Shown piece after piece: positions 12,879 to 30,297 of a stretch of 64,000 nt of DNA (position 1 is its first letter; each line of letters starts with the position of its first letter). Both the position numbers and the translations under genes were made by a program. Under the pieces are notes generated by a model. That model ran no database searches. It was not told the DNA's origin and was given only the letters and a program-made list of their open reading frames with translations. The DNA is from Peptococcaceae bacterium BICA1-7 (GTDB taxonomy: Bacteria; Bacillota; Desulfotomaculia; Desulfotomaculales; Desulfocucumaceae), in assembly GCA_000802095.1 (NCBI GenBank), contig JUEB01000029.1, forward strand, positions 62,001 through 126,000, read 5' to 3'.

Positions 12879-14054
12879 ATGTCCAAATTAGTACCCCCCC
12901 ATGGTGGGAAATTGACCCCTGTGCTGGCTCCCAAAGAGAAGAGAGCAGAACTGAAAGCCAAAGCTGAATCCCTGCCGGTTATCCGCATGAGCTCCCGGGA
13001 AACCTCCGACTGCTTGATGCTCGGCATGGGTGCATTCTCCCCGCTCACCGGCTTTATGAAAAAAGCCGACTATGAAGGCGTAGTTAATGGTAATCACCTG
13101 GCTAATGGCTTGGCCTGGCCCCTGCCTGTAACCCTGGCAGCAACCAAGGATCAGGCTGCGGCCATCTCCGTCGGGGCTGAAATGGCTCTGGTGGACGATG
13201 AGTCCGGCGAATACGTCGGCATCATCAAAATTGCTGACAAGTACGAATACGACAAGGTAAAAGAGTGCAAAAGCGCTTTCTTTACTGATGACGCAGATCA
13301 CCCCGGCGTTCAGAAAGTTATGTCCCAGGGCGAAGTATATATTGGCGGCGACATCGTAACCTTCTCCGAGCTGGGTTATGATGAGAAATATGCCGGCTAC
13401 TATGCTCATCCTGCACAAACCCGTGAACTGTTTGAGTCCAAAGGCTGGAGCACAGTTTGCGCATTCCAGACCCGTAACCCCCTGCACCGCTCCCACGAGT
13501 TCCTGTGCAAGATCGGTAACGAGGTTTGTGACGGACTGTTCCTGCATCCCATCGTAGGCAAACTGAAGAAGGGTGATATCCCTGCTGAAGTGCGCTTCGA
13601 GTGCTACAAGGCCCACATGGAAAATTATTTCAACCCCAAAACCATTGAAATGCGCGTATATCCGATGGAAATGCGCTATGCAGGCCCGAAAGAGGCAATC
13701 CTGCACGCCATATTCCGTCAAAACTTCGGCTGCAGCCACCTTCTGGTTGGCCGTGACCACGCCGGAGTAGGCAGCTATTATACTGCTTACCAGGCTCAGG
13801 AAATATTTGACGAGTTCAAGCCCGGTGAAATTCTTTGCCAGCCCATTAAAGTTACCTCTTCATACTACTGCAAGAGGTGCGACGGCATGGCCACCGATAA
13901 GACCTGCGCTCACGACCCTTCAGAGCGCGTAAACATCAGCGGCACCAAGGTTCGCGAAATGTTCGGCAGGGGCGAGCTTCCCCCGCTGGAGTTTGGCCGC
14001 AAGGAAGTTCTGGAAATACTGACCCGCTACTACCAGAGTCTCGACAATAAATAA
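12879..14054 (+). CDS. sat: Sulfate adenylyltransferase (dissimilatory)
   Basis: A 391-residue homo-oligomeric ATP sulfurylase that makes APS and pyrophosphate from sulfate and ATP, the first step of sulfate reduction. The catalytic QTRNPLHRSHE is at residues 197-207 and GRDHAGVG at 291-298. A CKRC...C cysteine set near residues 334-346 matches the zinc site of prokaryotic dissimilatory enzymes. AGGAGG lies directly upstream of ATG 12879. Arginine codons are mostly CGC/CGT, unlike most neighbours, pointing to high expression. It is separated from aprBA by about 420 bp with hairpins and a strong promoter. Confidence 0.97.
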   Translation: MSKLVPPHGGKLTPVLAPKEKRAELKAKAESLPVIRMSSRETSDCLMLGMGAFSPLTGFMKKADYEGVVNGNHLANGLAWPLPVTLAATKDQAAAISVGAEMALVDDESGEYVGIIKIADKYEYDKVKECKSAFFTDDADHPGVQKVMSQGEVYIGGDIVTFSELGYDEKYAGYYAHPAQTRELFESKGWSTVCAFQTRNPLHRSHEFLCKIGNEVCDGLFLHPIVGKLKKGDIPAEVRFECYKAHMENYFNPKTIEMRVYPMEMRYAGPKEAILHAIFRQNFGCSHLLVGRDHAGVGSYYTAYQAQEIFDEFKPGEILCQPIKVTSSYYCKRCDGMATDKTCAHDPSERVNISGTKVREMFGRGELPPLEFGRKEVLEILTRYYQSLDNK

Positions 14055-14066
14055 AGCTAGTAAACA

Positions 14067-14163
14067 GGCTGCCATGATCCTGAAATATGGATCACGGTAG
14101 CCGGGTTTAACATTGCTTCCTTTTGGCGGCGGCAGGTGCTTCACCATGTTGCCGCCGGATTTT
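14067..14163 (+). terminator. Tandem hairpins after sat
   Basis: First hairpin 14067-14102 (14-bp imperfect stem); second hairpin 14125-14157 (GGCGGC/GCCGCC with extension) followed by TTTT. Together they likely end or attenuate sat transcription. The remainder of 14164-14377 shows no gene. Confidence 0.6.
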
Positions 14164-14377
14164 CACACTCCGCTCGCCTGTGGTGGAAATATACAGATAT
14201 AGAATCATTAGCCCGGGCGGGTAAAAGCAATTACCAACTGGTCAGGGAGGTGGTATCTAAAAGGGGGAGGTAACACTTACTGGTAGCATATGGACAGAAG
14301 TTGAATGCTGAATAAGGAAAAGACGGTTTTTCGGACAGACCGGGAAACCGGGAGACCGCTTCAGTTATAATACAGCC

Positions 14378-14406
14378 TTGACATATGTCCTTTCAGGCTA
14401 TATTAT
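14378..14406 (+). promoter_or_regulatory. Strong SigA-type promoter of aprBA
   Basis: Perfect TTGACA (14378-14383), 17-bp spacer, TATTAT (14401-14406), 69 bp before the aprB start. The -35 overlaps a GACATATGTC palindrome. Confidence 0.75.
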
Positions 14407-14474
14407 CTCAAGGGTGTATAAGGAGCCAGTCTCAAGAGCCCTAAATTTCAAATTTGGAATAGGAGGTATAATTA

Positions 14475-14915
14475 ATGCCAACTTTTGTAATGGCCGAAAA
14501 ATGCGATGGCTGCAAAGGTCAAGACAAAACCGCTTGCATGTACGCATGCCCCAACGATCTGATGGTGTTGGACAAGGAAAAAATGAAAGCTTACAACCGT
14601 GACCCCTGGGCCTGCTGGGAATGCCTCTGCTGTGCCAAGGCCTGCCCGCAGCAAGCCATGGACCTGAGCGGTTACAAGGATTTCGTTCCCCTGGGAGCAA
14701 GCTGCACCCCGCTGAGAGGCTCGGAAGACATTATGTGGACCATTAAGTTCCGTAACGGAATGGTCAAGCGCTTCAAGTTCCCCATCCGTACCACTGAAGA
14801 AGGTTCCGCAGTGCCCGATGGCGGATTTGGCGCAGGCAGCGATGACCTCAATTCAGTTGATCTGTACACCGAACCCGCATCTCTGGGATCCGCTGTATGG
14901 TCCTTTAAGAAGTAA
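14475..14915 (+). CDS. aprB: Adenylylsulfate reductase beta subunit
   Basis: A 146-residue iron-sulfur subunit of dissimilatory APS reductase. It begins MPTFVMAEKCDGCKGQ; cysteines in CDGCKG, CMYACP and CWECLCCAKACP bind two [4Fe-4S] clusters that carry electrons to the FAD of AprA. The C-terminal half forms the arm that embraces AprA. AGGAGG precedes the ATG. It is followed 53 bp later by aprA with its own GGAGGAGG, one operon from the promoter at 14378-14406. CGT/CGC arginine usage suggests high expression. Confidence 0.97.
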   Translation: MPTFVMAEKCDGCKGQDKTACMYACPNDLMVLDKEKMKAYNRDPWACWECLCCAKACPQQAMDLSGYKDFVPLGASCTPLRGSEDIMWTIKFRNGMVKRFKFPIRTTEEGSAVPDGGFGAGSDDLNSVDLYTEPASLGSAVWSFKK

Positions 14916-14968
14916 TTGATTGATCAGCCACTAGAGAATTAAACAAATTACGGAGGAGGTTAATATAA

Positions 14969-16858
14969 ATGCCGATGAACTTTGAAACTGTAGAAGTAAC
15001 TACAGATTTTCTTATCATAGGTGGCGGCATGGCCGCCTGCGGCGCTGCCGTAGAAGCTGCTTACTGGGGAAAGAAACACGGAGTTAAGGTAACTCTGGTT
15101 GACAAGGCTTCCATGGTCCGTTCCGGTGCCGTGGGCATGGGTCTTTCAGCTATCAACCAATACATTGGTGTGTCCAAGGGCAAAAACACCATTGAAGACT
15201 ATATCAAGTACGTTAAATACGACCTGATGGGCGTAGCCCGTGACGACCTCGTCGCCAACATCGCCCGCCACGTTGACAGCACCGTTCACCTCTTCGACAA
15301 ATGGGGCCTGCCCTTCTGGAGAGACGAGAATGGCGACTATGTAAATGAAGGCCGCTGGCAGCTCATGATCAACGGTGAGTCCTACAAGGTTGTTGTTGCA
15401 GAAGCTGCAAAGAACGCCCTGGGAATGGACAACATTTACGAGCGCGTATTCATCATCGAGCCCCTGATGGATGGCGACAAAATTGCCGGCGCTGTAGGTT
15501 TCAGCGTTCGCGAAAACAAATTCTATGTGTTCAAGGCCAAAGCAGTTATGGCTGCCATGGGCGGCGCGGTTGGCGTGTTCAAGCCCCGCTCCACTGGTGA
15601 AGGTCTTGGCCGTTCCTGGTATCCCCCCTTCAGCACCGGTTCATCCGCATACTTTACCATCAAGGCCGGCGCAGAAATGACTTGCCAGGAAGTCCGCTTT
15701 GTTCCCATCCGCTTTAAGGATGCATACGGCCCGGTGGGCGCATGGTTCCTGCTGTTCAAATCCCGCGCCACCAACGCTTTCGGCGAAGAGTACATGGTTA
15801 CCCGCCGTGCAGAGCTGGCCAACTGGGGCAAATATGGCGCTGTGAAGCCGATTCCGGCCAACCTGCGTAACTACCTCGGCATGCTGGACCTGTTCGAAGG
15901 CAAAGGACCCATCTACATGAGAACTGATGAGGCCATTGCCAATATCGCCAAGAAGTACGAAGGCGACGAAAAAGCATTCAAGAAGAAAATGAAAGAACTG
16001 GAAGCCGAAGCTTGGGAAGACTTCCTCGACATGACCATTTCACAGGCTCTGCTGTGGGCAGCTACCAACGTTGAGCCCGAAAAGGGACCTTCCGAGATTG
16101 CTGCTACCGAGCCGTACTTCATCGGTTCACACTCCGGCGCTTCCGGCGCATGGGTATCCGGTCCTGAGGACCTGGCAGGCGGCACCGAGTATTTCTGGGG
16201 CTATGCCAACATGACCACCGTTAAGGGTCTGTTTGCAGCCGGCGATGCTTCCGGCGCATCCAGCCACAAGTTCTCCTCCGGTTCACACGCAGAAGGCCGT
16301 ATTGCTGCCAAGGCTGCCATCAAGTACTGCCTTGACAACCCTGCACAGCCTAACGTTGATGCTGCAACCGTAGAAGCTCTTAAGGCAAAAACCTATGAGC
16401 CGCTGGCAATATACGAGCAGTTCAAAGACTTCACCACCGACCCCGAAGTAAACCCGAACTACATCTATCCCAAGATGTTCATGTTCAGGCTCCAGAAGAT
16501 TATGGACGAGTATGTTGGCGGCGTGTCAGCTAACTTCTCAACCAACGCATCTTCACTGGACCGCGCCACTGTTCTGATGGGCTTCCTGAAAGAAGACTCA
16601 GAGAAACTGGCCGCCAGGAACCTGCACGAGCTGATGAGGGTTTGGGAAAACAAACACAGAATCTGGCAGGCTGAGTCACACATCAGGACAGTTATGTTCC
16701 GTGAAGAGACCAGGTGGCCTGGCTACTACTTCAGGGCTGACTTCCCGAAAATGGACGAAGAGAACTGGCTGTGCTTTGTTAACACCAAGTATGATCCCAA
16801 AACTAACGAGTGGTCCGTATTCAAGCGGCCCGTTCTGAACCTGTTCAACGTTGACTAA
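14969..16858 (+). CDS. aprA: Adenylylsulfate reductase alpha subunit
   Basis: The 629-residue FAD subunit that reduces APS to sulfite and AMP in the cytoplasm. FAD motif IIGGGMAACG at residues 16-25; substrate-channel residues recognisable by comparison with the Archaeoglobus enzyme are Trp217, Arg248, Phe260/Leu261 in GAWFLLF, and His388 in GSHSGASGAW. Length is normal for bacterial AprA. It ends before a strong hairpin, so aprBA is its own unit separate from qmoAB. Arginine codons are nearly all CGC/CGT in the first half, in contrast to the paralogue at 7774-9552. Confidence 0.98.
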   Translation: MPMNFETVEVTTDFLIIGGGMAACGAAVEAAYWGKKHGVKVTLVDKASMVRSGAVGMGLSAINQYIGVSKGKNTIEDYIKYVKYDLMGVARDDLVANIARHVDSTVHLFDKWGLPFWRDENGDYVNEGRWQLMINGESYKVVVAEAAKNALGMDNIYERVFIIEPLMDGDKIAGAVGFSVRENKFYVFKAKAVMAAMGGAVGVFKPRSTGEGLGRSWYPPFSTGSSAYFTIKAGAEMTCQEVRFVPIRFKDAYGPVGAWFLLFKSRATNAFGEEYMVTRRAELANWGKYGAVKPIPANLRNYLGMLDLFEGKGPIYMRTDEAIANIAKKYEGDEKAFKKKMKELEAEAWEDFLDMTISQALLWAATNVEPEKGPSEIAATEPYFIGSHSGASGAWVSGPEDLAGGTEYFWGYANMTTVKGLFAAGDASGASSHKFSSGSHAEGRIAAKAAIKYCLDNPAQPNVDAATVEALKAKTYEPLAIYEQFKDFTTDPEVNPNYIYPKMFMFRLQKIMDEYVGGVSANFSTNASSLDRATVLMGFLKEDSEKLAARNLHELMRVWENKHRIWQAESHIRTVMFREETRWPGYYFRADFPKMDEENWLCFVNTKYDPKTNEWSVFKRPVLNLFNVD

Positions 16859-16916
16859 TTAGTCTCACCCATACCCCGGGCGAGATTAGGTAGAACATGT
16901 GCCATCTACGGCGCTG

Positions 16917-16947
16917 GAGATCCCGTGGCCGTTGGCCACGGGATCTC
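16917..16947 (+). terminator. Perfect hairpin after aprA
   Basis: 14-bp perfect stem (GAGATCCCGTGGCC and its complement at 16934-16947) with a 3-base loop. There is no U-tract, so it may be an mRNA 3'-protecting structure rather than a terminator by itself. Confidence 0.6.
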
Positions 16948-17038
16948 TAAACGTCTGTTGCCGGGAGCAAGTCCCGGCTGATGGCGATAGAACGCCTGTG
17001 GGGACTGGCGGTAATAATCTTCTTACAAACCAGTTTTT

Positions 17039-17074
17039 CCAGGCGTCCTTTGGACCGCCTGGAGTTGTTTTTTT
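17039..17074 (+). terminator. Intrinsic terminator between aprBA and qmoAB
   Basis: CCAGGCGTCC pairs with GGACCGCCTGG (one bulge) around a TTT loop and is followed by a long T-run. Confidence 0.85.
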
Positions 17075-17157
17075 AAAAGGCCAGTTGAATAAAAAGGTAT
17101 GGCTTACAATGGTTGTCTAACGCTCTAACTTCATATATGAATGGAGATATCTTGAAT

Positions 17158-18405
17158 ATGGTTAATAAAAGTATTCTGGTAGTTGGCGGAGGAATAAGCG
17201 GTTTGACTGCTGCCATCGAGGCTGCCGAGGTAGGGTTTGATGTATTCATAGTTGAAAAGAACCCTTACCTGGGTGGTAAGGTGACCCAGATAAATCAGTA
17301 CTTCCCCAAGCTTTGCCCGCCTAACTGCGGCCTGGAGATAAACTTCAGAAGAATAAGAAGCAACCCTGCTGTAAAATTCTTCACCATGGCCGAGGTTGAA
17401 AGTGTTTCCGGGCAGGAGGGGAATTTTGACGTAACGGTAAAAATAAATCCCCGCTATGTAAATGAAAACTGCACTGGCTGCGGGAAATGTGCCGAGGTCT
17501 GCCCCGCTCAAAGGGCTAATGACTTTAACTACGGGCTGGACAAAACAAAGGCGGCTTACCTGCCCCACCAGTTTGCCTTCCCGGTGAAGTATGTCATTGA
17601 CGCCGGCGCCTGTCAGGATGGGTGCAGCAAGTGTGTTGAGGCCTGTCAGTATAATGCTATTGAAAAAGATATGCAGCCAAAGACAATGAAGCTGAATGTC
17701 GGTTCCATCGTCTGGGCAACCGGCTGGAAGCCCTATGATGCCGAAAAACTAAGCTATTATGGCTTTGGCAGATACCCCAATGTTATAACCAACGTTATTA
17801 TGGAGAGGCTGGCGGCCATAAACGGCCCCACCGGGGGTAAGATTGTCCGTCCTTCCGACGGAAAAGAAATTAAGAGCATTGCCTTTGTGCAGTGTGCCGG
17901 ATCCAGGGATGAAAACCACCTGCACGCGTGCTCCAGTGTCTGCTGCATGGCTTCACTGAAGCAGGCCACCTATGTCAGGGAGCAGTATCCTGACGCCAAA
18001 ATCTGTATCTATTATATTGACATCAGGGCACGCGGAAAGCATGAAGACTTCTTTGTCAAGGTGCAGAATGAAGCCAATATCACCCTAATCAAGGGCAAGG
18101 CCGGTGAAATTCAGGAAGACTCTGCCACCGGGCAGCTTGTCATAGTGGCTGAGGACCAGCTTAACCAGGCACTGTCCGAAGAAAAATTCGACATGGTAGT
18201 CCTGGCCACCGGTATGCAGCCTGCCACCGCCGAAACAAAGGTGCCCGCTGAGATGACCTACGATGAGGATGGCTATGTGGCTGCCGGTACACCGGGAATT
18301 TGCGCCGCAGGCTGCACCAAGAAGCCCCAGGATGTAGCCGCCGCGGTTGCTGACGCTACAGCCGCAGCGCTCAGGGCAATTCAATCAGTAAGGGGGCAGA
18401 GCTAA
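17158..18405 (+). CDS. qmoA: Quinone-interacting oxidoreductase subunit QmoA
   Basis: A 415-residue HdrA-like FAD protein with the N-terminal Rossmann motif VVGGGISGL, CPPNCGLE, two [4Fe-4S] motifs in an inserted segment (CTGCGKCAEVCP and CQDGCSKCVEAC), and CAGSRD. QmoA works with QmoB and, in Gram-negative sulfate reducers, membrane QmoC to pass electrons to AprBA. ATG 17158 is chosen because the protein then begins next to the FAD strand; TTG 17152 and TTG 17113 are alternatives. The stop overlaps the qmoB start (TAATG). An earlier terminator at 17039 implies its own promoter, which I could not pick out. Confidence 0.93.
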   Translation: MVNKSILVVGGGISGLTAAIEAAEVGFDVFIVEKNPYLGGKVTQINQYFPKLCPPNCGLEINFRRIRSNPAVKFFTMAEVESVSGQEGNFDVTVKINPRYVNENCTGCGKCAEVCPAQRANDFNYGLDKTKAAYLPHQFAFPVKYVIDAGACQDGCSKCVEACQYNAIEKDMQPKTMKLNVGSIVWATGWKPYDAEKLSYYGFGRYPNVITNVIMERLAAINGPTGGKIVRPSDGKEIKSIAFVQCAGSRDENHLHACSSVCCMASLKQATYVREQYPDAKICIYYIDIRARGKHEDFFVKVQNEANITLIKGKAGEIQEDSATGQLVIVAEDQLNQALSEEKFDMVVLATGMQPATAETKVPAEMTYDEDGYVAAGTPGICAAGCTKKPQDVAAAVADATAAALRAIQSVRGQS

Positions 18406-20633
18406 TGGCTAAGAAAATTGGTGTTTATATTTGTTCGGGGTGCGGCATTGGTGATGCCCTGGACATTGATGCCCTCGCCAAGGTAGCCACAAAGGAGTAC
18501 AAGGTTCCGGTCTGCCAGAAAAACGCCTTTTTCTGTGGTAAGGAAGGCGTGGAAGTAATTAAAAAAGACATCGCGGAGAACGAAGTAACCTATGTTGTAA
18601 TAGCGGGTTGCTCGGGCCGTGTAAACTATGACGTTTTTAATTTCGGCCCCTCGGTGGTGCTGGAAAGGGTCAACCTGCGTGAGCGTGTGGTCTGGACCCA
18701 GGAGCCCGATGATGAGGATACTCAGATGATGGCCGAAGACTATCTGCGCATTACTCTGGCCAAACTTAAAAACCTTGAGCTGCCTGAGGCCTATGTGATT
18801 GAAAACTGCAACAAGAGGGTCATGGTGGTGGGCGGTGGCCTGGCCGGCATGACTTCAGCTGTGGAAGTGGCCAAGGCCGGCTATGAGGTAGTGCTGGTGG
18901 AGAAAGAGGACTCCCTGGGTGGCTGGCTTAAAAGGTCATACAAGATAGCCCCCTTAAACTCCCCCTATACCGATCCCGAAGACACCGGGCTGGAAGCCAG
19001 GGTTAAGGAAATAGAAGGTAATTCCAATATTAAGGTATACACTTCCACAACTATTGAAAAGACAGCCGGGGCTCCCGGAATGTTTGATGTTACTTTAAAG
19101 CAGGGCGGAGGCACTCTTGAGGAGAAGGTGGGGGCCATCATCCTGGCCACCGGCGCCGTTCCCTACGAGCCCTCCAAGCTGGGACATCTGGGCTACGGGG
19201 CGTCCCCCAACGTGGTCACCCAGGCGCAGTTTGAGGAACTGGCCGCCAAGGGCACAATCGCCCGCCCCTCGGACGGCAAGGCTGTACAGAAGGTTGGCTT
19301 TATACAGTGCGCCGGGTCCAGGGATCAGGAGCACCTGCCGTACTGTTCGGCGGCCTGCTGCGTGGAGTCCATCAAACAGGCGCTCTATGTAAAGGGTCAG
19401 AACTCCGAGGCTGCAGTTTACGTTTTCTACAAGGACATTCGCTCCTCCGGCCAGTATGAGCACTTCTACAAGAAGGCCCAGAGCGAGGGAGTAATGTTCA
19501 TTAAGGCTGATGTCACCGGTGTGACCGATGATGGGGGCAATCTCACCATCGAGGCCAATGACCTGCTTATGGGATCTCCCACCATGGCTGATGAATTGGA
19601 CATGGTGGTGCTGGCCAACGGTATGGTTCCCACCACAGCCTTTGAAGATCCGGCATACGGAACCGAGGCCCAGGAAGAGGCCGCCTGCGCGGCAGCAGAT
19701 GCTGCTCCCGTGCCCGCGCCCATCATCAAGTCCAATATTCTTAACCTGGAATACAGGCAGGGTCCGGAGCTGCCCTCTCTCAAGTACGGCTTCCCGGATT
19801 CCCACTTCATCTGCTTCCCTTACGAGACCCGCCGTACCGGCATCTATGCGGCCGGCAGCGTAAGAAGGCCCATGGATATGTCCCAGGCTGTGGGAGACGC
19901 CACCGGCGCCGCCCTGAAGGCCGTCCAGTGCATAGAGATGACAGATAAGGGCGGGGCAGTTCATCCTCGTTCCGGAGATATCTCGTTCCCCGATTTCCAG
20001 CTGAACCGTTGCACCCAGTGCAAGCGCTGCACTGAGGAGTGCCCCTTCGGCGCCATCAACGAGGACGAGAAGGGCAATCCGCTGCCCAACCCCACACGCT
20101 GCAGAAGGTGCGGGACCTGTATGGGAGCCTGCCCGGAGCGTATCATCTCCTTTAAGAACTACTCTGTGCCTATGCTGGGCAATATGCTCAAGTCCATTGA
20201 GGTTCCCGAAGAGGACGAGGAGAAGCCGAGAGTTCTTATATTCGCCTGCGAGAACGACGCCATTCCGGCACTGGACATGGCGGGCATAAACAGGCTTCAG
20301 TACAGTAAGTGGGTCCGCATTATTCCGGTCCGCTGCCTTGGCTCCCTTAACCTTGTATGGATCAATGACGCCATGTCCAAAGGATTTGACGGAGTGCTCC
20401 TAATGGGCTGTAAGCACGGGGACGACTACCAGTGCCACTTCATGAAAGGCAGTGAGCTGGCCGGCATAAGACTGTCCAAGGTTTCCGAGACTCTTGACAG
20501 GCTTGGTCTGGAGTCCGAGAGGGTCTACATGACTGAGGTCAATGTAATGGACTATGACAGGATACCCAAGATAATAAATGAATTCGTGGAGAAGATCGAC
20601 AAGTTCGGTCCCAACCCCATGAAGGGATTCTAG
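18405..20633 (+). CDS. qmoB: Quinone-interacting oxidoreductase subunit QmoB
   Basis: A 742-residue protein: N-terminal HdrA Cys domain (CSGCG, CGKEG, AGCSG), FAD motif VVGGGLAGM near residue 141-149, CAGSRD and CSAACC, a C-terminal two-cluster ferredoxin (CTQCKRCTEECP and CRRCGTCMGACP), then an MvhD-like domain (ACENDA, RCLG, GCKHGD). It partners QmoA and relays electrons between AprBA and the HdrBC module that replaces QmoC here. An Ala/Glu-rich insertion (residues 418-437) lies in the FAD domain region. It overlaps qmoA by one base and is followed by a hairpin before hdrC. Confidence 0.94.
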   Translation: MAKKIGVYICSGCGIGDALDIDALAKVATKEYKVPVCQKNAFFCGKEGVEVIKKDIAENEVTYVVIAGCSGRVNYDVFNFGPSVVLERVNLRERVVWTQEPDDEDTQMMAEDYLRITLAKLKNLELPEAYVIENCNKRVMVVGGGLAGMTSAVEVAKAGYEVVLVEKEDSLGGWLKRSYKIAPLNSPYTDPEDTGLEARVKEIEGNSNIKVYTSTTIEKTAGAPGMFDVTLKQGGGTLEEKVGAIILATGAVPYEPSKLGHLGYGASPNVVTQAQFEELAAKGTIARPSDGKAVQKVGFIQCAGSRDQEHLPYCSAACCVESIKQALYVKGQNSEAAVYVFYKDIRSSGQYEHFYKKAQSEGVMFIKADVTGVTDDGGNLTIEANDLLMGSPTMADELDMVVLANGMVPTTAFEDPAYGTEAQEEAACAAADAAPVPAPIIKSNILNLEYRQGPELPSLKYGFPDSHFICFPYETRRTGIYAAGSVRRPMDMSQAVGDATGAALKAVQCIEMTDKGGAVHPRSGDISFPDFQLNRCTQCKRCTEECPFGAINEDEKGNPLPNPTRCRRCGTCMGACPERIISFKNYSVPMLGNMLKSIEVPEEDEEKPRVLIFACENDAIPALDMAGINRLQYSKWVRIIPVRCLGSLNLVWINDAMSKGFDGVLLMGCKHGDDYQCHFMKGSELAGIRLSKVSETLDRLGLESERVYMTEVNVMDYDRIPKIINEFVEKIDKFGPNPMKGF

Positions 20634-20665
20634 TGTTAGCAATATAAAATAGGATATGGGATGAG

Positions 20666-20696
20666 GGACGGCCTAGCGGCCGTCCTGACTCCTTTT
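20666..20696 (+). terminator. Hairpin between qmoB and hdrC
   Basis: GGACGGCC and GGCCGTCC around a TAGC loop, then CCTTTTT ten bases later. Weak or leaky terminator; it may lower hdrCB expression relative to qmoAB. Confidence 0.55.
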
Positions 20697-20789
20697 TGGA
20701 ATAATGAACGGACGTTCAGCGATGGCCAGACATTAAAATAATGTAAAAGAGAGTTTAAAAAAACATTTTGGCCAAAGGAGCATGAAAAT

Positions 20790-21392
20790 ATGACGGGTTT
20801 TAATGTTTCCTCTGGGCCGTTGAAGTACGATACCGAATTCGCCAGGGAGATCTACTCCCTGGAAAACGGCCACCATATTAAAAAATGCATGCAGTGCGGG
20901 ATGTGCGAGGTGTCCTGCGCCACCAGAAAAGAGATGGACTACTCCCCCCGCAAGATGTTTCTCCTTTTGAGGACCGGGCAGAGAGAAGAGTTCTTCAAGT
21001 CAAATACCATGTGGATGTGCAGCACATGCCTGATGTGCAAGGTCCGCTGCCCCAGGGGAGTACCTATTGTAGACGTTATGCACGACCTGAAGTGCTACGC
21101 CATCAGCAAAGGCTACACTGAAAGGGCCCAGGCCGCTTTCTACCAGTCTTTCTGGAAGGAAATATGGAGCCGGGGCAAGCAGTTCGAGGGCGGTCTTATG
21201 GCCAGGTATTACCTTAAGCGGGGCTGGAAAGATATCAGGAAAGATGCCTTTAGAATGAAAGACATGGGTTTGACAATGTTGAAGCATGGACGGATGCCCT
21301 TAATGCCTCCCAAGAGCGTCAAGGGTCTGAAGGACGTGCAGAAGCTGGTGGAAGTGGCCAAGGCCCAGCTGCAGAAAGGGGCGGATAGGTAA
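20790..21392 (+). CDS. hdrC: Heterodisulfide-reductase-type subunit C
   Basis: A 200-residue soluble iron-sulfur protein. CMQCGMCEVSC at residues 33-43 and CSTCLMCKVRCP near 76-87 bind two [4Fe-4S] clusters, as in methanogen HdrC. In Gram-positive sulfate reducers hdrBC stand in place of qmoC after qmoAB, which is exactly the order here. It should connect QmoAB with HdrB. Ribosome binding site AAAGGAG precedes ATG 20790. Its stop overlaps the hdrB start by the ATGA-type junction at 21392. Confidence 0.92.
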   Translation: MTGFNVSSGPLKYDTEFAREIYSLENGHHIKKCMQCGMCEVSCATRKEMDYSPRKMFLLLRTGQREEFFKSNTMWMCSTCLMCKVRCPRGVPIVDVMHDLKCYAISKGYTERAQAAFYQSFWKEIWSRGKQFEGGLMARYYLKRGWKDIRKDAFRMKDMGLTMLKHGRMPLMPPKSVKGLKDVQKLVEVAKAQLQKGADR

Positions 21393-22273
21393 TGAAGTAC
21401 AGCTTTTATCCCGGCTGTTCCATGGAAGCAACGGCTGTCCCGTACCTAAAATCCTTTGAGGCCGTTGCTCATGCACTGGGTATAGAATTGAAAGAGATTC
21501 CCGACTGGAACTGTTGCGGGGCCACTGTTGCCTCAGGAGTAATAGGGGACTATCCGGCCCAGGTAATGACTTCCCGTAATCTGGCTCTGGCTGAGCCTCA
21601 TGGCGCGGACATTGTTGTGCCCTGCAGCTCATGTTACATGAACCTGGCCATTACCAACCGCAAGTTTAAGGAAGACGGGCATTTCCGCCAGATGGCCGAT
21701 GAGGCTCTGGCCTCGGTGGGAATGAAGTACGGCGGCTCTCTTAATGTAAGGCAGATTATTGATGTCATGGTCAACGATGTGGGTCTTGACACAATTAAGT
21801 CCAAGGTCAAAAAGCCTCTTACCGGGCTTAGGGTGGCAGGCTATGTGGGCTGCCAGACCCCAAGGGTTTTCCCCTGGGAATTTGACGACCCGGAACAGCC
21901 TGTATTTTTTGACAAAATTATTGAGGCACTGGGCGCCACCCCGGTGAAGTTCCCCGTGAAGGCCCGCTGCTGCGGCAGCTCTCACTCGGTGGCCCAGCCT
22001 GAAATAACAGCTGACTCGTGCTATAACATCATAACCTCGGCCCAGGACGACCAGGCTCATTTAATAGCCGCGGTATGCCCCATGTGTCAGCTTAATCTGG
22101 ATGCCTATCAGGACCTGGTAAAGGAGCGCCATAAATTAAAAACCTCTATGCCGGTGCTGTTCTTTACCCAGCTTATGGCCATTGCCATGGACCTGCCGCC
22201 GGACGCCTGGGCGCTGAAACATAATATAGTGTCGCCCTTCACGGCTCTGGCAAAATTTGGGGTAGGTAAATAA
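21392..22273 (+). CDS. hdrB: Heterodisulfide-reductase-type subunit B
   Basis: A 293-residue protein with two complete CCG domains: the first has Cys9, NCCG near residue 41 and CSSC near 79; the second has CQTP, CCGS and CPMC. In HdrB each CCG domain binds an unusual non-cubane [4Fe-4S] cluster and acts on a heterodisulfide; here the partner thiol/disulfide or quinone is unknown. All ligand motifs are intact. It is the last gene of the hdrCB pair and is followed by hairpins at 22303-22339 and 22391-22415. Confidence 0.92.
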   Translation: MKYSFYPGCSMEATAVPYLKSFEAVAHALGIELKEIPDWNCCGATVASGVIGDYPAQVMTSRNLALAEPHGADIVVPCSSCYMNLAITNRKFKEDGHFRQMADEALASVGMKYGGSLNVRQIIDVMVNDVGLDTIKSKVKKPLTGLRVAGYVGCQTPRVFPWEFDDPEQPVFFDKIIEALGATPVKFPVKARCCGSSHSVAQPEITADSCYNIITSAQDDQAHLIAAVCPMCQLNLDAYQDLVKERHKLKTSMPVLFFTQLMAIAMDLPPDAWALKHNIVSPFTALAKFGVGK

Positions 22274-22981: not shown

Positions 22982-23524
22982 TTACCCTGCTATTTGTTTT
23001 TCTTCATTAGCAGTATCCGTACTTTCTACATTGAAGGCATATATTTTGCCAATTATTTCATTGGCGCCTATAATGCCAACCACCCTGTCATCCTGCCATA
23101 CCGGCATAACTTCATATCCGTTTGAAACTAGAGCGTGTAATGCCTTAATCAGAGTATCATTTAAATTTAGAAAATGGCTTGCCGGTCTCATGACATCCTG
23201 CACGGCATATTCTAAAATCTCTCGGCACTTTTCTTCAAAAACACTACTCAGGAATAATGGCGGCGTCCATTCGTCAGAGACCGTCCATCCGCGATAAGTG
23301 CCCGCTTTAAAAACTGTTGGATACATCGCCTGTAGAATTTCTCTCAGTCCAAGGATACCTAACAGAGTGCTGTTTTCCGTTACTAAAAGACTGGCGCTGC
23401 CGGGGCATGATCCAGAGCTCAGAGCTTTACCAAGTATACTTAAAGCTTCTTTGACATTACTTCCAGCAGGTATAGAGGGGTACTTACCTATAGCCACCAT
23501 AGCGTCTTTGACTAATATTTCCAT
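22982..23524 (-). CDS. CBS-domain protein
   Basis: A 180-residue cytoplasmic protein made of a tandem CBS pair: the first covers residues 1-70 (KDAMVAIGKYPSI to LLGILGLREIL), the second residues 108-165 (AVQDVMRPASHFL to VVGIIGANEII). CBS pairs bind adenosine nucleotides and regulate partner enzymes or transporters. It is the last gene of a three-gene minus-strand operon with a TSUP exporter and a membrane protein, so AMP/ATP-dependent (or APS/PAPS-like) gating of that transporter is a reasonable guess. GAGGAGG precedes the start. Confidence 0.85.
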   Translation of the reverse strand: MEILVKDAMVAIGKYPSIPAGSNVKEALSILGKALSSGSCPGSASLLVTENSTLLGILGLREILQAMYPTVFKAGTYRGWTVSDEWTPPLFLSSVFEEKCREILEYAVQDVMRPASHFLNLNDTLIKALHALVSNGYEVMPVWQDDRVVGIIGANEIIGKIYAFNVESTDTANEEKQIAG

Positions 23525-23552: not shown

Positions 23553-24263
23553 TTACGCTTCTGATTTCTTGGCTGCCTTAGTCATGGTAATACCTAGCCC
23601 ATCATATAGGTAGTAAATCGCAAAACCGTACCATAATGTGTATATTACATAAAAGATTAGCATGAAGGTAACTATGGCGATATTGTTTCTAACATATTTA
23701 ATCTCAATGCCGTAATAGTTATAGGCAGGCTCTATGACTTTCTTTGAAAGTGTTCCAATGGCGTTTGATTCTTTAAATTTACCCTGGGTTTTTAGCTCCT
23801 TGTCAATTTTCTTATAGGCGTTGTACCATCCGTACATTACTTCCCTGGCCTCGTAGCCGTACTTGTCCTTTATCTTTTTACCATCGTTGTTATATAGGGC
23901 GTCACTATCGTTCAGAGTTTCTTTCATTATTTTACCGAGGTCTCCTTTGATAGTAACTTTGTCATTATCCACTATAACTGAGGAATCGGCTGTGGAAAAT
24001 ATTTTGCCCCATTTTTGGGCCTCAGCTGTGTCGGAAGCCTTTATTGAAACATCAATACTACTGCCTACCTGTTGTTCAGCTTTAATTGACTCCTCCTTGA
24101 TAAAATAAGCAGAGCCTTTGGAAAGTGAGTTGAACAGATCGTCGGAGTACTGTAGCCCGTTTCTGCCGTTGCCAAAGGAGGGTGACAATATATACGCGAA
24201 TAGACAGATAAAAGATACCATCATCGCTAACCCAAGTATGAATGTCTTACTATTTCTTATCAT
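23553..24263 (-). CDS. Membrane protein with extracytoplasmic domain, TSUP partner
   Basis: A 236-residue protein with one N-terminal membrane segment (FILGLAMMVSFICLFAYIL), an extracytoplasmic region of about 150 residues, and a C-terminal membrane segment (AIVTFMLIFYVIYTLWYGFA) with a short cytoplasmic tail. I do not know a named family, but the gene lies two bases after the TSUP gene and before the CBS gene, so it is probably an accessory subunit of the exporter. The outer domain is rich in Lys, Asp and Ser with no cysteines. Function is inference from context. Confidence 0.7.
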   Translation of the reverse strand: MIRNSKTFILGLAMMVSFICLFAYILSPSFGNGRNGLQYSDDLFNSLSKGSAYFIKEESIKAEQQVGSSIDVSIKASDTAEAQKWGKIFSTADSSVIVDNDKVTIKGDLGKIMKETLNDSDALYNNDGKKIKDKYGYEAREVMYGWYNAYKKIDKELKTQGKFKESNAIGTLSKKVIEPAYNYYGIEIKYVRNNIAIVTFMLIFYVIYTLWYGFAIYYLYDGLGITMTKAAKKSEA

Positions 24264-24265
24264 AA

Positions 24266-25555
24266 TTAATGTCTCACTCCCTCTTCGGCAGTCCCAGCTG
24301 ACTGCGCTCTTAAAAGTGGTATATTAGTGATAAATGTTATTATAATCCAGGCGGCGAAAATACCTACTATGGCGAAAAATATTACAGTTCCGATGTTAGC
24401 TATTAGTTTAGATGTTTCCGGGGCCATGCTAATATAATTCATCTGCTGTAGGCTATCCGGTAGGGCAAAAAGTCTGTTCACAAAGCCTGCTAAAATGGCC
24501 AATGCATAAAAGGCCCTTATTTTAATACCTGGCACAACTTTGGTTGTGACTGCTCCCAGCTGAATGCCCAGTAAGGATCCGACCAGCATGCCAATAGCCA
24601 GTGTATAAAAGACGTAGCCGTATACTGCGTACTGCGCGATTGAACCATAGCCAGCAGTGAAGATGATTTGCAAAATGTCGGTGCCGACAGTGGTAAAGGA
24701 TGATACGCCAAGGATGTAAACGAACGCCGGGAAGGTCAGGAAACCGCCTCCAACTCCCAGTATGGCAGCCATGAAGCCTACTACAGCACCGCATATAGCC
24801 ACGAATACACCGGAAACTTTTCTTCCTCCAGGGGTAATATCATTATCAAAGGTTATCATTGGAGGAATATTGACGGATTGCACCTTTACTGCCAGGTTGG
24901 TTAACCCAGTAGAGCCACCGTGGGCGTCTCCCTGATTTGCCGGGGCTTTACTCTTTGAGGCTTTAATGTAGTCATATAAGGCATAGAAGCCCAGGAAGCC
25001 AAGCATGATCACGTAGACGGAGCTTATTACCAGGTTACTTAAAACCGGACTATAATTAAACAATTCCCGGTTTACAATCCCTCCGCCGGTAACCCCCAGG
25101 CCCGAGCCCACCAAAAATGCGATGGCCAAACCCACGTGCACATTGCCGAGCTTCTTGTGTATGGTGGTTCCCATGATGGCCTTGGCAAAAATGTGAAACA
25201 TATCTGTACCCACTGCAAGGATACCTTTAACACCCAGGCTCATAAGCGCCGGGGTGATTACGAAGCCTCCTCCGGCCCCTATGCAGCCGGTTATGAGACC
25301 TGCTATAACACCAACGGCCATAGATCCATAAAATATTCCAGGGGTATAGAATGTAGGGCCGTATGAGGATTTGCTTCCTATAAAATCAGGAAGTACTCCC
25401 GCCGCGTGGGCTATGGCAGGAATAAGCACCGGCAAAAAAAGTGCCAGCAGTATTAATAATTTTTTCCGATCTTTTAATATTGTATTTGAAACTTCCATTT
25501 CCCAGCGGGCATGGGCCCTGGAAGCCTCCATCAAAGAGTTATATAGTGCTCTCAT
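24266..25555 (-). CDS. TSUP (TauE/SafE) family anion transporter
   Basis: A 429-residue polytopic membrane protein with the two-fold TSUP repeat: the first repeat has GLITGCIGAGGGFVITPAL, the second GFMAAILGVGGGFLTFPAF, each followed by a VGTD motif. A hydrophilic loop of about 50 residues joins the halves. TauE/SafE proteins move sulfite, sulfoacetate or related organosulfur anions; members in sulfate reducers are discussed as sulfate or sulfite carriers. The N-terminus has about 30 extra charged residues before the first helix. The operon continues with the two-helix partner and the CBS protein. Family sure, substrate inferred. Confidence 0.85.
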   Translation of the reverse strand: MRALYNSLMEASRAHARWEMEVSNTILKDRKKLLILLALFLPVLIPAIAHAAGVLPDFIGSKSSYGPTFYTPGIFYGSMAVGVIAGLITGCIGAGGGFVITPALMSLGVKGILAVGTDMFHIFAKAIMGTTIHKKLGNVHVGLAIAFLVGSGLGVTGGGIVNRELFNYSPVLSNLVISSVYVIMLGFLGFYALYDYIKASKSKAPANQGDAHGGSTGLTNLAVKVQSVNIPPMITFDNDITPGGRKVSGVFVAICGAVVGFMAAILGVGGGFLTFPAFVYILGVSSFTTVGTDILQIIFTAGYGSIAQYAVYGYVFYTLAIGMLVGSLLGIQLGAVTTKVVPGIKIRAFYALAILAGFVNRLFALPDSLQQMNYISMAPETSKLIANIGTVIFFAIVGIFAAWIIITFITNIPLLRAQSAGTAEEGVRH

Positions 25556-25725
25556 TTAATTTCTAACCTCCCCTAAAGAATAATAAAAATTTTATTTTGA
25601 CACTACTGTAGAGTTTTTTACCAGACCTTTTATTAAGAATTCCTTTCCTCACCCCCTTGTAAAGAGTCGTTACCGGACAGGCAACAATCACTTTTTCCGT
25701 AGTGACAACTTCTTTAAAAAAGATA

Positions 25726-25873: not shown

Positions 25874-28042
25874 TTGTCACTACGGTCCTTTGGGCCATTT
25901 CCTAAATTATTGTACACTGTTGATCGTCCACTCCAATGGCCTTTAATATCTCCTCCTGGATTTTAGGAATTTTGGTTATAGATTTCACCTCCCTGTCGTC
26001 AAGCTGATTGATTGACAGCTTGATGTCTTCTAATAGCAAAAGCGCCTGTCGTGGGTGAAGATTAATTCCTGCCTGGTGAAGCAGCCGTTCCATAGTCTTT
26101 ACCAATATTGCCGACAGCAGGTAAATAAAGATATTGGCTGATATATTTGCATCTAAATAGAGATGGCTTGGGCTGGCCGTGAAGATGTTGTTAATGCGAT
26201 AAGGCTCTCCCAGTTGCCTCATGCTGGTATATGATTCAATAATTTCCCTGCAGCTCAATTGGTTGGAGTTTGTTTCCAAAAGAAACATTCCGGCCTGTTG
26301 TTGTTCCAGTTTGATAACGTCGTCCTTGCGCCTGTAGTTAAACTGCCGGGATCCTTCATCGTAATGCCACTCAAAATATTTGCGGCAATAGATGTTTTTA
26401 AAAACAGGTTGGTTTTTGTAAAAGCCGGTATTGTAAAGAGTATGGCTATCATCAATAGCTTTCCTAATTGCATTTAGATCATTTTCAACTGATTTGAGGT
26501 GCTCTTCAAACAAATCATTTTTATAATTGGCGCTCTTAAGGTCGCAGCACAAAACCCTACGAACTTCATATCCATTAATTTCTTTAAACCAGAGTCCTTC
26601 ATTTAACTCGACAAAGTTTTTATTTCCCAAAAGCTGATCACGATATAATAAATCTCTGTCCTGACTGTGCCAGAGCTTACGACCGGCAAGGTATTCATAG
26701 CCATGTGCCACCAGGAGCTCCATTTTTGCATTGGCCGTTACATTTCGTTCGCCTACAAAGATACACTTTTTAAATCCGTAATTGTTATTTAGATATTCCG
26801 GTATTTCCTTGAAGTCCATTTCTACTGAGCCACTTTGGAATACCCAGTGACCAAAAGGGATCCCATCGGAGCTTGACATCAACCCAAACTCTATATTCTT
26901 ATACTCATCCGGCTCTTCCAGTATATACTTGCCATAAATGGATGAGTGTTGTTCAAAGAGAGAGGAAGGTTCATAAGAGCAGGTAGCCAGGTGACAAAAA
27001 GCAAAATCTGTTTTGATAGGAAAAAGACGTGTTAATTGCTTAAATATACTTTCTTCTATTTGATATTTATATTCTGCCAAAATGTTCAATGCACTGTAAA
27101 AATGATGGGGGCGGAGTTCGGCTTTTTCTGGCGCCGGGGGGCTCAGGTGCTGGTACCAGTCATTTATAGCCTGTTTGTCCGGAGGTTTGATTACCTGGTC
27201 AAGGGCCATTAATTCTGCCAAAAGAGGTATGTTCAAATTATTGTATTGATTTTTTATGGACGTTTCAAAGGCCCTTGTTATCCGGACCATTTCCCATATA
27301 TTATGAAGTGCCAAAACCTCTCCATAACGTAAAACTTTTTTGGCTTCGAGCTGGGTTGAATCATTGGCTACCCCACAGATTCTGGAAAGCCCCGCTATTA
27401 ATACCTGAACCTTCTCAGGCGTTAGGCTCTCAAGGTTGCCGAGATTGGCTATGACCCTCTGCTTGACTTTATTGCCTTCCCGGTAATTCTCTATAAGCTT
27501 TAAGTATGTGTATTCTTTGCCATTATTCCGGCTGATAGTTTTACGGAAGAACACGGCGACACCCCCTCGTATCTCTTTAACCCCACAGGCTTTAGTTTTC
27601 AAAAGTCACAGCTGCCGCTTATTCTGATGGTGTAGGTTATTTTCCGCGTATTGTTGTTTTTCACTACTTTTTTACTCTACATAATAGCGGGCTATCTTCG
27701 AATGTAATTATTCCGGTTTATATTTTATTACCGGGTGGCGCTTACTTTTTATTACTATATCATAGTCACTATACTTGTGCAATAATTCACACGTTAAAAG
27801 TTTAAAGTTAAAATTTTCAGACAAAATATATTGCAATCTTTTCAACATCTATAATTAAAATGGCGTAACATTGGAAAAATATGATATAACCTGGTTATTT
27901 TGTGGAATTATATGGTTTTTAAATGGGCGGCTATGGTATTGGTAGTGCAATTTATAAGTGACAAAAATAACAAGCAATGGTGTCATAATAAATAACTTTG
28001 CCAGTGAATGTATAGTTTTACTTGAATTAATGGTAGTGACAA
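25874..28042. mobile_element. IS1634-like element, probable boundaries
   Basis: TTGTCACTAC at 25874-25883 and its exact complement GTAGTGACAA at 28033-28042 form 10-bp terminal inverted repeats around the transposase ORF (2,169 bp). No target-site duplication is obvious, and 430 bp of non-coding sequence lies on the transposase 5' side, which is long for this family, so the ends are tentative. The region is clearly AT-richer than its surroundings. Confidence 0.45.
25902..27602 (-). CDS. IS1634-family transposase-like protein lacking two catalytic Asp
   Basis: A full-length 566-residue ORF. The N-terminus (RKTISRNNGKEYTYLKLIEN, then QRVIANLGNLESL) and the core (GYEYLAGRKL; RQLGEPYRINNIF; ISANIFIYLLSAIL) are those of IS1634/IS4-type DDE transposases. 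Yet where the family has FYDVTT the protein reads AFCHLATCS, and where it has ADRGM it reads VGERNV, so the first Asp is His and the second is Glu; the glutamate in LGEPYR remains. The ORF has no frameshift. It is either a dead copy or a domesticated protein. Alignment is from memory of the family. Confidence 0.8.
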   Translation of the reverse strand: MKTKACGVKEIRGGVAVFFRKTISRNNGKEYTYLKLIENYREGNKVKQRVIANLGNLESLTPEKVQVLIAGLSRICGVANDSTQLEAKKVLRYGEVLALHNIWEMVRITRAFETSIKNQYNNLNIPLLAELMALDQVIKPPDKQAINDWYQHLSPPAPEKAELRPHHFYSALNILAEYKYQIEESIFKQLTRLFPIKTDFAFCHLATCSYEPSSLFEQHSSIYGKYILEEPDEYKNIEFGLMSSSDGIPFGHWVFQSGSVEMDFKEIPEYLNNNYGFKKCIFVGERNVTANAKMELLVAHGYEYLAGRKLWHSQDRDLLYRDQLLGNKNFVELNEGLWFKEINGYEVRRVLCCDLKSANYKNDLFEEHLKSVENDLNAIRKAIDDSHTLYNTGFYKNQPVFKNIYCRKYFEWHYDEGSRQFNYRRKDDVIKLEQQQAGMFLLETNSNQLSCREIIESYTSMRQLGEPYRINNIFTASPSHLYLDANISANIFIYLLSAILVKTMERLLHQAGINLHPRQALLLLEDIKLSINQLDDREVKSITKIPKIQEEILKAIGVDDQQCTII

Positions 28043-28133: not shown

Positions 28134-28574
28134 ATGTCTGTCACCTCACGCGCATATGAGCCTGGGCTGGAAGGGGAACTGTCAGCACCCTTCAAAAAGT
28201 TATTTAAATCTATTAAGGGCTTGTTTGTAAATAAAGAAATCAGTCGCTTTGCCCGTTTATACCATATGGATTTTTCTTATGGGCTGATTCCCAACACTGC
28301 TGTCAGTGACTTTGCCAATATAAGTAAAATTACTTCTTTGTACAGTGGAGACTGTTATGTTTATTTGTTCCAACAAGCTCACTATCAGGGGTGGTACCGG
28401 ATTGTGGGACCTGGTGAAAGAATAGAGACCGATCAGTGTGAGTCATTAATAGTCAGCTTAAATCCAATCTCATTGGATGAGGTGCAAAGGACGGCAAGGG
28501 CTCCAGAATTCTGTTGGGAGATGTCGGGCCCGATGTATTTGATGCATTTTTACGCAGCCTACAGGTATGCTTGA
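28134..28574 (+). CDS. Hypothetical protein with a crystallin-like motif
   Basis: A 146-residue soluble protein, ATG behind AAAGGGGTGAT. Residues 66-104 (GDCYVYLFQQAHYQGWYRI then DQCESLIVSL) resemble one beta/gamma-crystallin Greek-key motif: aromatic-x-aromatic-LF, YQG, and a late D-x-x-x-S. Only one such motif is visible. The C-terminus ends MYLMHFYAAYRYA. No signal peptide. It lies just beyond the insertion element, has its own terminator and no evident operon partner. Function unknown; the fold suggestion is weak. Confidence 0.6.
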   Translation: MSVTSRAYEPGLEGELSAPFKKLFKSIKGLFVNKEISRFARLYHMDFSYGLIPNTAVSDFANISKITSLYSGDCYVYLFQQAHYQGWYRIVGPGERIETDQCESLIVSLNPISLDEVQRTARAPEFCWEMSGPMYLMHFYAAYRYA

Positions 28575-28797: not shown

Positions 28798-30297
28798 ATG
28801 AGCAAGAAAAAGGTCTACGAATTAAACTCGTTTAGAAAAAAAGGCGAACAAGTTATTCATGTCAGGGAAGAAGACAAGGGTAAAAATAGCCTATACAATA
28901 TATTTTGTGAGGTTATTTTTAAAAAAAAGTGGCTCTTACTGGCCTCTGCCCTGGCCGCAGTCATTTGCTTAATGCCTACACCCGGGGGTTTAACTGAAGA
29001 CGGTAAATATGCGCTGGGGTTATGGTCATTTATTATAGTTTGTTTTATTACAGAAGCTTTGCCACTGCCTATGACAGCAATGATTATAGGTTCCTATCAG
29101 ATAATGGCAGATATGGGAAACTTTCATGAAATCCCTAGAACTTTCATGGATGATGCTGTTGTGTTTATTATGGGAGTACTTATGATGGGTAACTTGCTGG
29201 TGAAGTATAATATTCATAATAAAGTTGCCCTTTATATGCTAAGGTTGTCCGGTACCAGGATTGAGAGGGTTGTCCTGGGAATAGTGGCCTTTTGCGCTAT
29301 TAGTGCCAGTTTTTTGACTGAGCATGCCACTGTTACTATTATGCTTCCTATAGGGGTGGGTATAGTTTCTTTAAGCGGTGGTGTTGCCAGGGCGCCAAGG
29401 TTGGCCAAACTAATTATGCTGGCTATATCCTACGGCGTGATCATCGGTGGGGTGGCCTCACCGTCAGGCGGTGCGCGTAATGCGCTTATGCTCAGCTATC
29501 TTAATAACCTGGGCATAAATATAGGCTATGGTAACTGGATGTTAATGGCCATGCCATTCACAATTATAATGATACCAGTTGTAACCATTTGGCTTCTAAA
29601 GCTTTACAAACCGGAGATAGCTGATCTGGCAAAAGTTATGGAAACAATTAGAAGTGAGATGGAATCCGAAGGCCCAATGACTCTGCAGGCAAAAACTGCT
29701 CTTGGAATTTTTCTTGCCGTGCTGGTAAGCTGGGTCCTTTTTAGTGAAAGATTTGGCGCGGGAAATATAGTCATGATGGGCATTATTCTGGCGGCAGTCT
29801 TTGGACTTGTTGATTGGGGTTACCTGCATAAAAAAACTCAGTGGGGTGTGGTTGTTCTGTATGCAGGGGCTATCTCGATGGGAAAAATGCTGATGGTGAC
29901 AGGAGCGGCAACCTGGTTGGCAAAGAAGCTTTTAGCCGCTGCGTCAGCTTTTGGTATTATGGACGGGCTCCCGCTATTAGCGGTGACTACCACCATTACC
30001 GCCCTGGCCACCAACACAATGGCAGACGGCCCAACAGTAGCAGTGCTTGGCCCAATTTTTCTTAAAGCTGCCGAAATGTCCGGCACTTCCCTTTATACCA
30101 TTGGGGTTGCAACCTCATTGGGTTCCGCTTTTTCTTACCTGCTGGTAATTGCCACCCCGGCAAACGCAATTGTATATGGGTCCGGTTTTTTAAAGGGGAA
30201 TGATTTTTTAAAGGCCGGCGGCCCGCTTTTCTTAATCTCACTAGCGGTTACGGTAATGCTGGCCTTCATATGGTGGGGCAGACTGAATATTTCGTAA
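28798..30297 (+). CDS. SLC13/DASS family anion:sodium symporter
   Basis: A 499-residue membrane protein with a charged N-terminal tail of about 45 residues and roughly eleven to twelve membrane segments. The two DASS substrate/ion hairpins are visible: FLTEHATVTIMLPIG in the first half with SPSGGARNALML, and LATNTMADGPTVAVLGP in the second. The first motif has TEH where sodium-dependent members have SNT, so ion coupling may differ. DASS members carry C4-dicarboxylates, citrate or sulfate; in a sulfate reducer either is plausible. GGGGGGAGG precedes ATG 28798. It appears monocistronic. Confidence 0.85.
   Translation: MSKKKVYELNSFRKKGEQVIHVREEDKGKNSLYNIFCEVIFKKKWLLLASALAAVICLMPTPGGLTEDGKYALGLWSFIIVCFITEALPLPMTAMIIGSYQIMADMGNFHEIPRTFMDDAVVFIMGVLMMGNLLVKYNIHNKVALYMLRLSGTRIERVVLGIVAFCAISASFLTEHATVTIMLPIGVGIVSLSGGVARAPRLAKLIMLAISYGVIIGGVASPSGGARNALMLSYLNNLGINIGYGNWMLMAMPFTIIMIPVVTIWLLKLYKPEIADLAKVMETIRSEMESEGPMTLQAKTALGIFLAVLVSWVLFSERFGAGNIVMMGIILAAVFGLVDWGYLHKKTQWGVVVLYAGAISMGKMLMVTGAATWLAKKLLAAASAFGIMDGLPLLAVTTTITALATNTMADGPTVAVLGPIFLKAAEMSGTSLYTIGVATSLGSAFSYLLVIATPANAIVYGSGFLKGNDFLKAGGPLFLISLAVTVMLAFIWWGRLNIS

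Follow-up and report, generated by a model that had tools for sequence, protein, structure and literature searches.

A domesticated, catalytically dead IS1634-type transposase is a candidate regulator of sulfate/sulfite transport in sulfate-reducing Bacillota

Next to the sulfate-reduction genes of the window, by which we mean the whole 64,000-nucleotide stretch of Peptococcaceae bacterium BICA1-7 DNA analysed here, lies an unbroken gene of transposase ancestry whose catalytic residues have been replaced. The gene is intact, non-mobile, held in a conserved place and under purifying selection, and its standing as a domesticated transposase is strongly supported. The catalytic loss is ancient and shared, the linkage to neighbouring genes is conserved, and a short DNA element, GTAGTGACAA (motif A), accompanies the gene in cis and, in part, in trans. 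Judging from these sequence patterns, the product is probably an autoregulated regulator of sulfate/sulfite transport built on a dead DDE transposase, with motif A as its putative binding site. We infer the binding itself, together with the sign and the signal of the regulation. A first-pass annotation had offered a domesticated DNA-binding protein as one of two readings of this gene; the domestication stands, and DNA binding gains indirect support through motif A.

The ORF (25902–27602, minus strand) runs without a break over 566 codons, including an upstream extension, and matches the NCBIfam profile NF033559 (IS1634 transposase) with E = 4.3e-56 and 190.9 bits against a cut-off of 100, in agreement with the unbroken IS1634-type frame described at first pass. 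A Pfam search with the ORF protein gave no match. The IS1634 family consists of IS4-related DDE transposases. The N-termini of relatives read M/V/L-FFRK, mostly after a GGTGGTG- or GGGGGTG-type ribosome site, which makes GTG 27554 the probable start and yields a protein of 550 amino acids. The features of the gene are as follows.

25905–27554, minus strand: gene for the catalytically dead, IS1634-derived protein (550 codons, start GTG 27554)
27369–27554, minus strand: N-terminal domain (res. 1–62), the most conserved part, proposed to bind DNA, with 18 invariant residues
26991–26993, minus strand: codon of His188, replacing the first catalytic Asp (DVTT column) in the anchored alignment
26748–26750, minus strand: codon of Glu269, replacing the second catalytic Asp (ADRG column) in the anchored alignment
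26208–26210, minus strand: codon of Gly449, replacing the catalytic Glu (VERAF column) in the anchored alignment

The catalytic columns were anchored on a multi-copy IS1634 element of a relative. All three members of the D, D, E triad of active IS1634 transposases are replaced in the ORF: the His and Glu that the first-pass annotation had read in place of the two Asp residues recur as His188 and Glu269, and the alignment with active elements that it had proposed adds a third replacement, Gly449, absent from that annotation. The first Asp is found in none of 43 rows of the dead kind and in all 38 live-type IS1634 rows, the second in 22 of 43 versus 38 of 38, and the Glu in none of 43 versus 36 of 38; one of the two live-type rows without Glu has a gap and the other an Ala in a misaligned stretch. 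A shifted alignment was considered and rejected, because the live-type rows carry Asp in both columns and, in 36 of 38 cases, Glu in the third. The dead rows have no consistent replacement at the first position (His, Leu, Arg and six other residues) or at the third (Gly, Ala, Arg, Thr and others). These rows were chosen by an N-terminal pattern, and the 81 rows include 77 different sequences, some being identical. At eight of 48 loci the pattern found no dead gene; six of these diverged loci were checked, and the first Asp is gone in all six. Two diverged members, L138 and L139, seem to retain the third-position Glu.

In a tree of these sequences, the 43 dead and 38 live-type rows lie on the two sides of one branch with support 100/100, and the dead clade spans several families of one order. 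The clade supplies the orthologues with a shared catalytic loss (first Asp 0/43, Glu 0/43) that were to be sought. A single origin of the clade is likely rather than proved, owing to the selection by N-terminal pattern, the identical rows and the long branches among dead rows. Some match occurs in 67 of 100 genomes, that of the window included, and 29 loci (L005–L033) besides the window's own hold long homologues of the dead kind at 34–67% identity. With a family profile, 30 of 113 genomes of the order (again including that of the window) score above 700 bits; among 398 genomes drawn from the phylum, six exceed 730 bits, all from the same order, and the next best reaches 247 bits. Named relatives with the gene are Desulfallas sp. 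Bu1-1, Desulfoscipio geothermicus MAGs and Sporotomaculum syntrophicum; Desulfallas and Sporotomaculum belong to the Desulfallaceae (Bacillota). Many mobile copies in the genome had been named at first pass as grounds for rejecting a crippled or domesticated gene. We looked for several such copies in the genome of the window and found a single full-length one, besides partial matches at three places (E = 3.6e-22, 1.8e-7 and 7.6e-7), so the ORF is not a multi-copy mobile element here. Matches were found in 17 of 72,556 plasmid records, all below 60% identity, and the annotated ones are named IS1634 transposase.

The dead gene evolves under constraint. Its dN/dS is 0.097–0.168 in ten pairs from g11, which we take to be Desulfofundulus, 0.112 in g34, 0.075 in g51 and 0.060–0.079 in three aprA-positive pairs from g27. 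The proposed check for purifying selection thus returned 0.060–0.168 in close aprA-positive pairs, values that resemble those of neighbouring genes; an outlier is the cross-genus aprA-positive pair L019/L025, at 0.34. Among the 25 closest pairs listed, change is least in the first 62 residues. A g27 subclade of four genomes (G032, G080, G093 and G484) has no aprA over the cut-off and dsrA over the cut-off in each member. The six pairs of aprA-lacking g27 genomes give a dN/dS of 0.192–0.293 for the dead gene and of 0.05–0.25 for shared neighbours, with three exceptions at 0.29–0.41. The higher dN/dS of the dead gene in this clade is consistent with constraint having eased once sulfate activation was lost, and may represent one event.

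The neighbourhood of the gene is conserved too. In the window the dead gene is followed by a TauE gene, c6 and a CBS-domain protein gene, and a DASS symporter gene lies on the opposite side.

24266–25555, minus strand: TSUP/TauE-family transporter (PF01925, by Pfam), probable target gene
23553–24263, minus strand: c6, a 236-residue membrane-type protein adjoining TauE, without a Pfam or NCBIfam match
22982–23524, minus strand: CBS-domain protein
28798–30297, plus strand: DASS (SLC13-type) sodium-coupled anion symporter, possible target
12879–22273, plus strand: genes of dissimilatory sulfate reduction adjoining the locus (sat, aprA and HdrA/Qmo-like electron-transfer genes)

Across 41 loci, the genes within 4 kb of the dead gene include TSUP/TauE at 24, DASS at 18, an ArsB/CitMHS-type permease at 12, CBS at 23, c6 at 17 and qmo-type genes at eight. 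TSUP/TauE or DASS is present at 31 of the 41, at least one of the three transporter types at 33, and an anion transporter (TauE/TSUP, DASS or ArsB-type) or a qmo-type gene at 38; the exceptions are L050, from a genome without aprA, and L142 and L143, on contigs of 4.3 and 7.5 kb. Neighbour labels were transferred by blastp from the first loci, and a Pfam check confirmed the transporter labels in the window and in five sampled relatives (four of four weak TauE cases and one permease). At L054 and L144 the residues of the ORFs were not used, and the neighbour counts rest on position. Fifty-one genomes were assigned by hand as gene-positive, truncated or unverified members included. With relatedness ignored, TauE (E up to 1e-60) is found in 41 of these 51 versus nine of 49 gene-negative genomes, and aprA over the cut-off in 44 of 51 versus 24 of 49. 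The g14 genomes, presumably Desulforamulus, carry the dead gene–TauE–c6 unit in tandem at L058 (6894–12394) and L146 (7592–13115).

Some further details of these neighbourhoods were observed. Tandem units occur at L147 and L149 too, where the second TauE–c6 pair has no detected dead gene of its own. The c6 gene is present at 13 of the first 21 loci, usually adjoining TauE. A 146-residue ORF, c10 (28134–28574 in the window), recurs at eight of the first 21 loci and has no Pfam or NCBIfam match.

Motif A occupies the gaps on both sides of the dead gene, with inverted copies flanking it.

28033–28042, plus strand: exact copy of motif A in the upstream gap of the dead gene
27658–27667, minus strand: motif A with one mismatch, ~105 bp upstream of the start codon of the dead gene
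25874–25883, minus strand: exact copy of motif A directly downstream of the dead gene, in the upstream region of TauE
25699–25708, plus strand: motif A, exact, inverted relative to the copy at 25874, upstream of the TauE gene
25597–25606, minus strand: motif A with one mismatch, upstream of the TauE gene

The motif was first spotted by eye in flank alignments of part of the loci. De novo counting of 9-mers in 31 flank sets returned TAGTGACAA in 18 and TATTGCACA in 17, versus 11 for the best of 20 shuffles. We then scanned up to 400 bp on either side of 44 dead genes (34.8 kb), with 60 permuted motifs as control. Exact motif A has 27 sites beside 23 of the 44 genes (permuted motifs: mean 0.03, maximum 1), and with up to one mismatch it has 71 sites beside 36 of the 44 (permuted: mean 2.1, maximum 10); the reversed motif has none around the same genes. 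By clade, genes with motif A at up to one mismatch number 7/7 in g14, 5/5 in the early branches, 1/2 in f13/f14, 4/6 in f1, 10/11 in f10/f16 and 6/6 in f8. At this threshold the motif stands beside every C-terminally diverged (7/7) and every early-branching (5/5) member, and aprA-lacking genomes have it in two of four cases (exact, none of four). Its exact density in 40 of 48 loci, the eight without a pattern-detected dead gene being omitted, is, for intergenic DNA, 1.23/kb close to the gene and 0.138/kb elsewhere in the locus, and for coding DNA 0.023/kb. The 15 exact sites in nominally coding DNA are above chance and may in part reflect spurious ORFs covering gaps. In the genome of the window, exact motif A occurs nine times, as does its reversed control, which is chance level genome-wide; three of the nine sites fall in the two gaps beside the dead gene, and only this local clustering is special.

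The motif also extends in part to TauE genes that are unlinked to, or far from, the dead gene. Exact motif A precedes such genes in six of 13 regions versus one of ten from gene-negative genomes (Fisher p = 0.09, a weak result by itself), and with up to one mismatch in 11 of 13 versus three of ten (Fisher p = 0.013). Two of the ten gene-negative regions come from G021 (57% completeness) and one from G097 (86%), and genomes that share ancestry do not count as independent. Exact motif A is absent from 322 kb of apr loci in 17 gene-negative genomes, a kind of locus that differs from the dead-gene loci. Motif A was also compared with ten ends of live IS1634 elements as a possible origin; inverted copies of it flank the dead gene, but its likeness to those ends was not significant (p = 0.19).

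A second element, the palindromic motif B (TTGTGMAATATTKCACAA), lies in the same promoter region of the window.

27775–27792, palindrome without assigned strand: motif B, CRP/FNR-type, two mismatches to TTGTGMAATATTKCACAA

A scan of 100 genomes at up to one mismatch gave 19 motif B places in 17 of them, with 16 places in 14 gene-positive genomes and three more in three gene-negative ones. Thirteen of the 19 stand upstream of TauE, DASS or the dead gene itself, no more than ~340 bp away, and three places in gene-positive genomes lie elsewhere. In g14 loci it was not found with up to four mismatches, while motif A and the dead gene persist there. Motif B resembles the HcpR consensus TTGTGAnnnnnnTCACAA, which stands upstream of sat and apsAB in Desulfovibrio, as described in PMC545781. 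The resemblance points towards the HcpR regulon outlined there, HcpR being a CRP/FNR protein, but most motif B places here precede the dead gene, TauE or DASS. Rex was dropped as a reader of motif B, as the published HcpR/CRP consensus fits. From the likeness to HcpR sites, and from the absence of motif B in g14 where motif A persists, we infer that motif A would be read by the dead transposase and motif B by a CRP/FNR-type regulator.

Genes of the c20/c23 kind (a histidine kinase and/or a sigma-54 response regulator) lie near the dead gene at L053, L054, L055, L133 and L135–L137, and also at L140, L141, L143 and L145.

The most serious rival grants the domestication and assigns motif A to something else: the protein would have a structural or architectural role on DNA, or would partner the transporters, and the promoters would be controlled by another regulator, such as c20/c23 or a CRP/FNR protein at motif B. 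CBS, c6 and transporter genes do travel with the dead gene, several of the promoters bear motif B as well, and c20/c23, a histidine kinase and an NtrC-type sigma-54 regulator whose helix-turn-helix is of the Fis type, lies near the gene in some genomes and is the chief alternative candidate for reading these promoters. Against this, the protein has transposase ancestry and a near-invariant N-terminal domain, motif A follows the gene even into the g14 loci, where motif B was not found at up to four mismatches, and c20 and c23 are found at only four and three of the first 21 loci and not at the window's locus. We regard this rival as unlikely.

The body of the protein is predicted to have a Tn5-like fold. 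The full model (pLDDT 78.3) has Tn5 transposase as its best match (Foldseek E = 9.3e-6), with structural Z scores of 13.1–13.6, the highest over 316 residues at an rmsd of 5.8. The N-terminal domain (18 invariant residues among 31 sequences) was modelled separately as res. 1–66, which form a three-stranded sheet and a helix (pLDDT 86.7). A fold search with this domain gave no clear match: arm-type DNA-binding domains from P4-like integrases head the Foldseek list at a weak E of 0.12–0.15, and their Z of 3.2–3.3 is tied with unrelated folds and not significant. The family profile, run against PDB sequences, returned only two chance-level rows.

The same fold raises a reading in which the protein is a trans-dominant inhibitor of transposition that silences live IS1634 copies. 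Its model is Tn5 Inh, a non-transposing relative of a transposase that is made from the active element itself. The Tn5 inhibitor structure (PDB 1b7e) is among the best matches to the fold (Z 10.8), and G054 carries the dead gene along with 12 other IS1634 matches, of which the four that were read are all live-type. Such a role is nonetheless very unlikely, since the genome of the window has no full-length live copy, the gene sits beside sulfur transporters, the protein is mostly 21–28% identical to live-type copies, and motif A is not significantly like live ends; the dead gene is, moreover, a separate gene with a conserved place, unlike Tn5 Inh. More improbable still is that the protein has kept an enzymatic activity, whether through atypical catalytic residues or as another kind of nuclease: the model retains the RNase H-like transposase fold, the second Asp is kept in about half of the dead rows and Glu seems kept in two diverged members, but the first and third positions lack any consistent replacement. 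The other reading of the first-pass annotation, that an IS copy was crippled very recently and has not yet decayed, accords with the unbroken IS1634-type ORF and is refuted, with next to no probability left, by losses of the first Asp and the Glu that are common to a 43-row clade over several families, by a dN/dS far below 1 and by the single full-length copy in the genome.

We therefore return to the domesticated regulator and outline how it might operate. An IS1634-type transposase (DDE, Tn5-fold) would have been domesticated, probably in a single event, by an ancestor belonging to this sulfate-reducing order of Bacillota, losing its catalytic residues and keeping its conserved N-terminal domain. 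That domain would bind, as putative operators, the GTAGTGACAA elements, which form direct and inverted repeats beside the gene and recur ahead of the TauE, c6 and CBS genes and of further genes for sulfate/sulfite transport. The C-terminal, Tn5-like body would no longer cut DNA and could serve in dimerisation, looping or sensing. The protein would then be an autoregulated transcription regulator of sulfate/sulfite transport, with a CRP/FNR-type input at motif B acting alongside. Repression is the more likely sign because motif A sites bracket the gap before TauE; activation is possible instead. As to its history, we lean towards an early domestication in the order as a dedicated sulfate/sulfite transport regulator with GTAGTGACAA operators, followed by tandem duplication with the transporter operon and by decay where aprA was lost.

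Compared with the IS1634 transposases of NF033559, the protein shares full-length homology and a Tn5-like fold, but differs in its triple catalytic replacement, its separate clade, its one full-length copy in the genome and its conserved neighbourhood. TldR proteins originate from TnpB, have lost their catalytic residues and lie near transporter or flagellin genes. They are RNA-guided transcription factors that reuse a transposon-type nuclease as a regulator in bacteria (PMC13418256); the present case is alike in turning such a bacterial protein into a putative regulator, but the protein here is a DDE transposase and, in place of RNA guidance, its putative target is a repeated DNA motif. SETMAR and FHY3/FAR1 are transposase-derived DNA-binding proteins of eukaryotes (PMC8327481, PMC13306707). 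They resemble the dead gene product in the reuse of a transposase for DNA binding and gene regulation, putative here, and differ in being eukaryotic and from other transposon families; the sites of SETMAR are genomic transposon ends, whereas the putative sites here cluster beside the gene and in sulfur-transport promoters. A literature search by a few queries over titles and abstract openings, with partial coverage, returned no report of this gene or family, and within the same scope none of a bacterial DDE transposase used as a regulator. The label 'IS1634 family transposase' hides what appears to be a conserved regulator candidate and a putative operator for sulfate/sulfite transport in Gram-positive sulfate reducers. 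Sulfate reduction is a geochemically important pathway, and the proposal, if true, would provide a testable example, in bacteria, of a DDE transposase that came to act as a transcription factor within core energy metabolism.

Two other sites in the genome of the window were observed. At G000:C24:77826, exact motif A lies between ORFs of 402 and 493 residues, possibly by chance; we take the 493-residue product to resemble a sulfate-exporter-type membrane protein. At G000:C16:20110–20142 (in L177), the only other site in this genome where motifs A and B (two mismatches) stand side by side, the pair occupies the gap upstream of a 705-residue ORF of unknown function.
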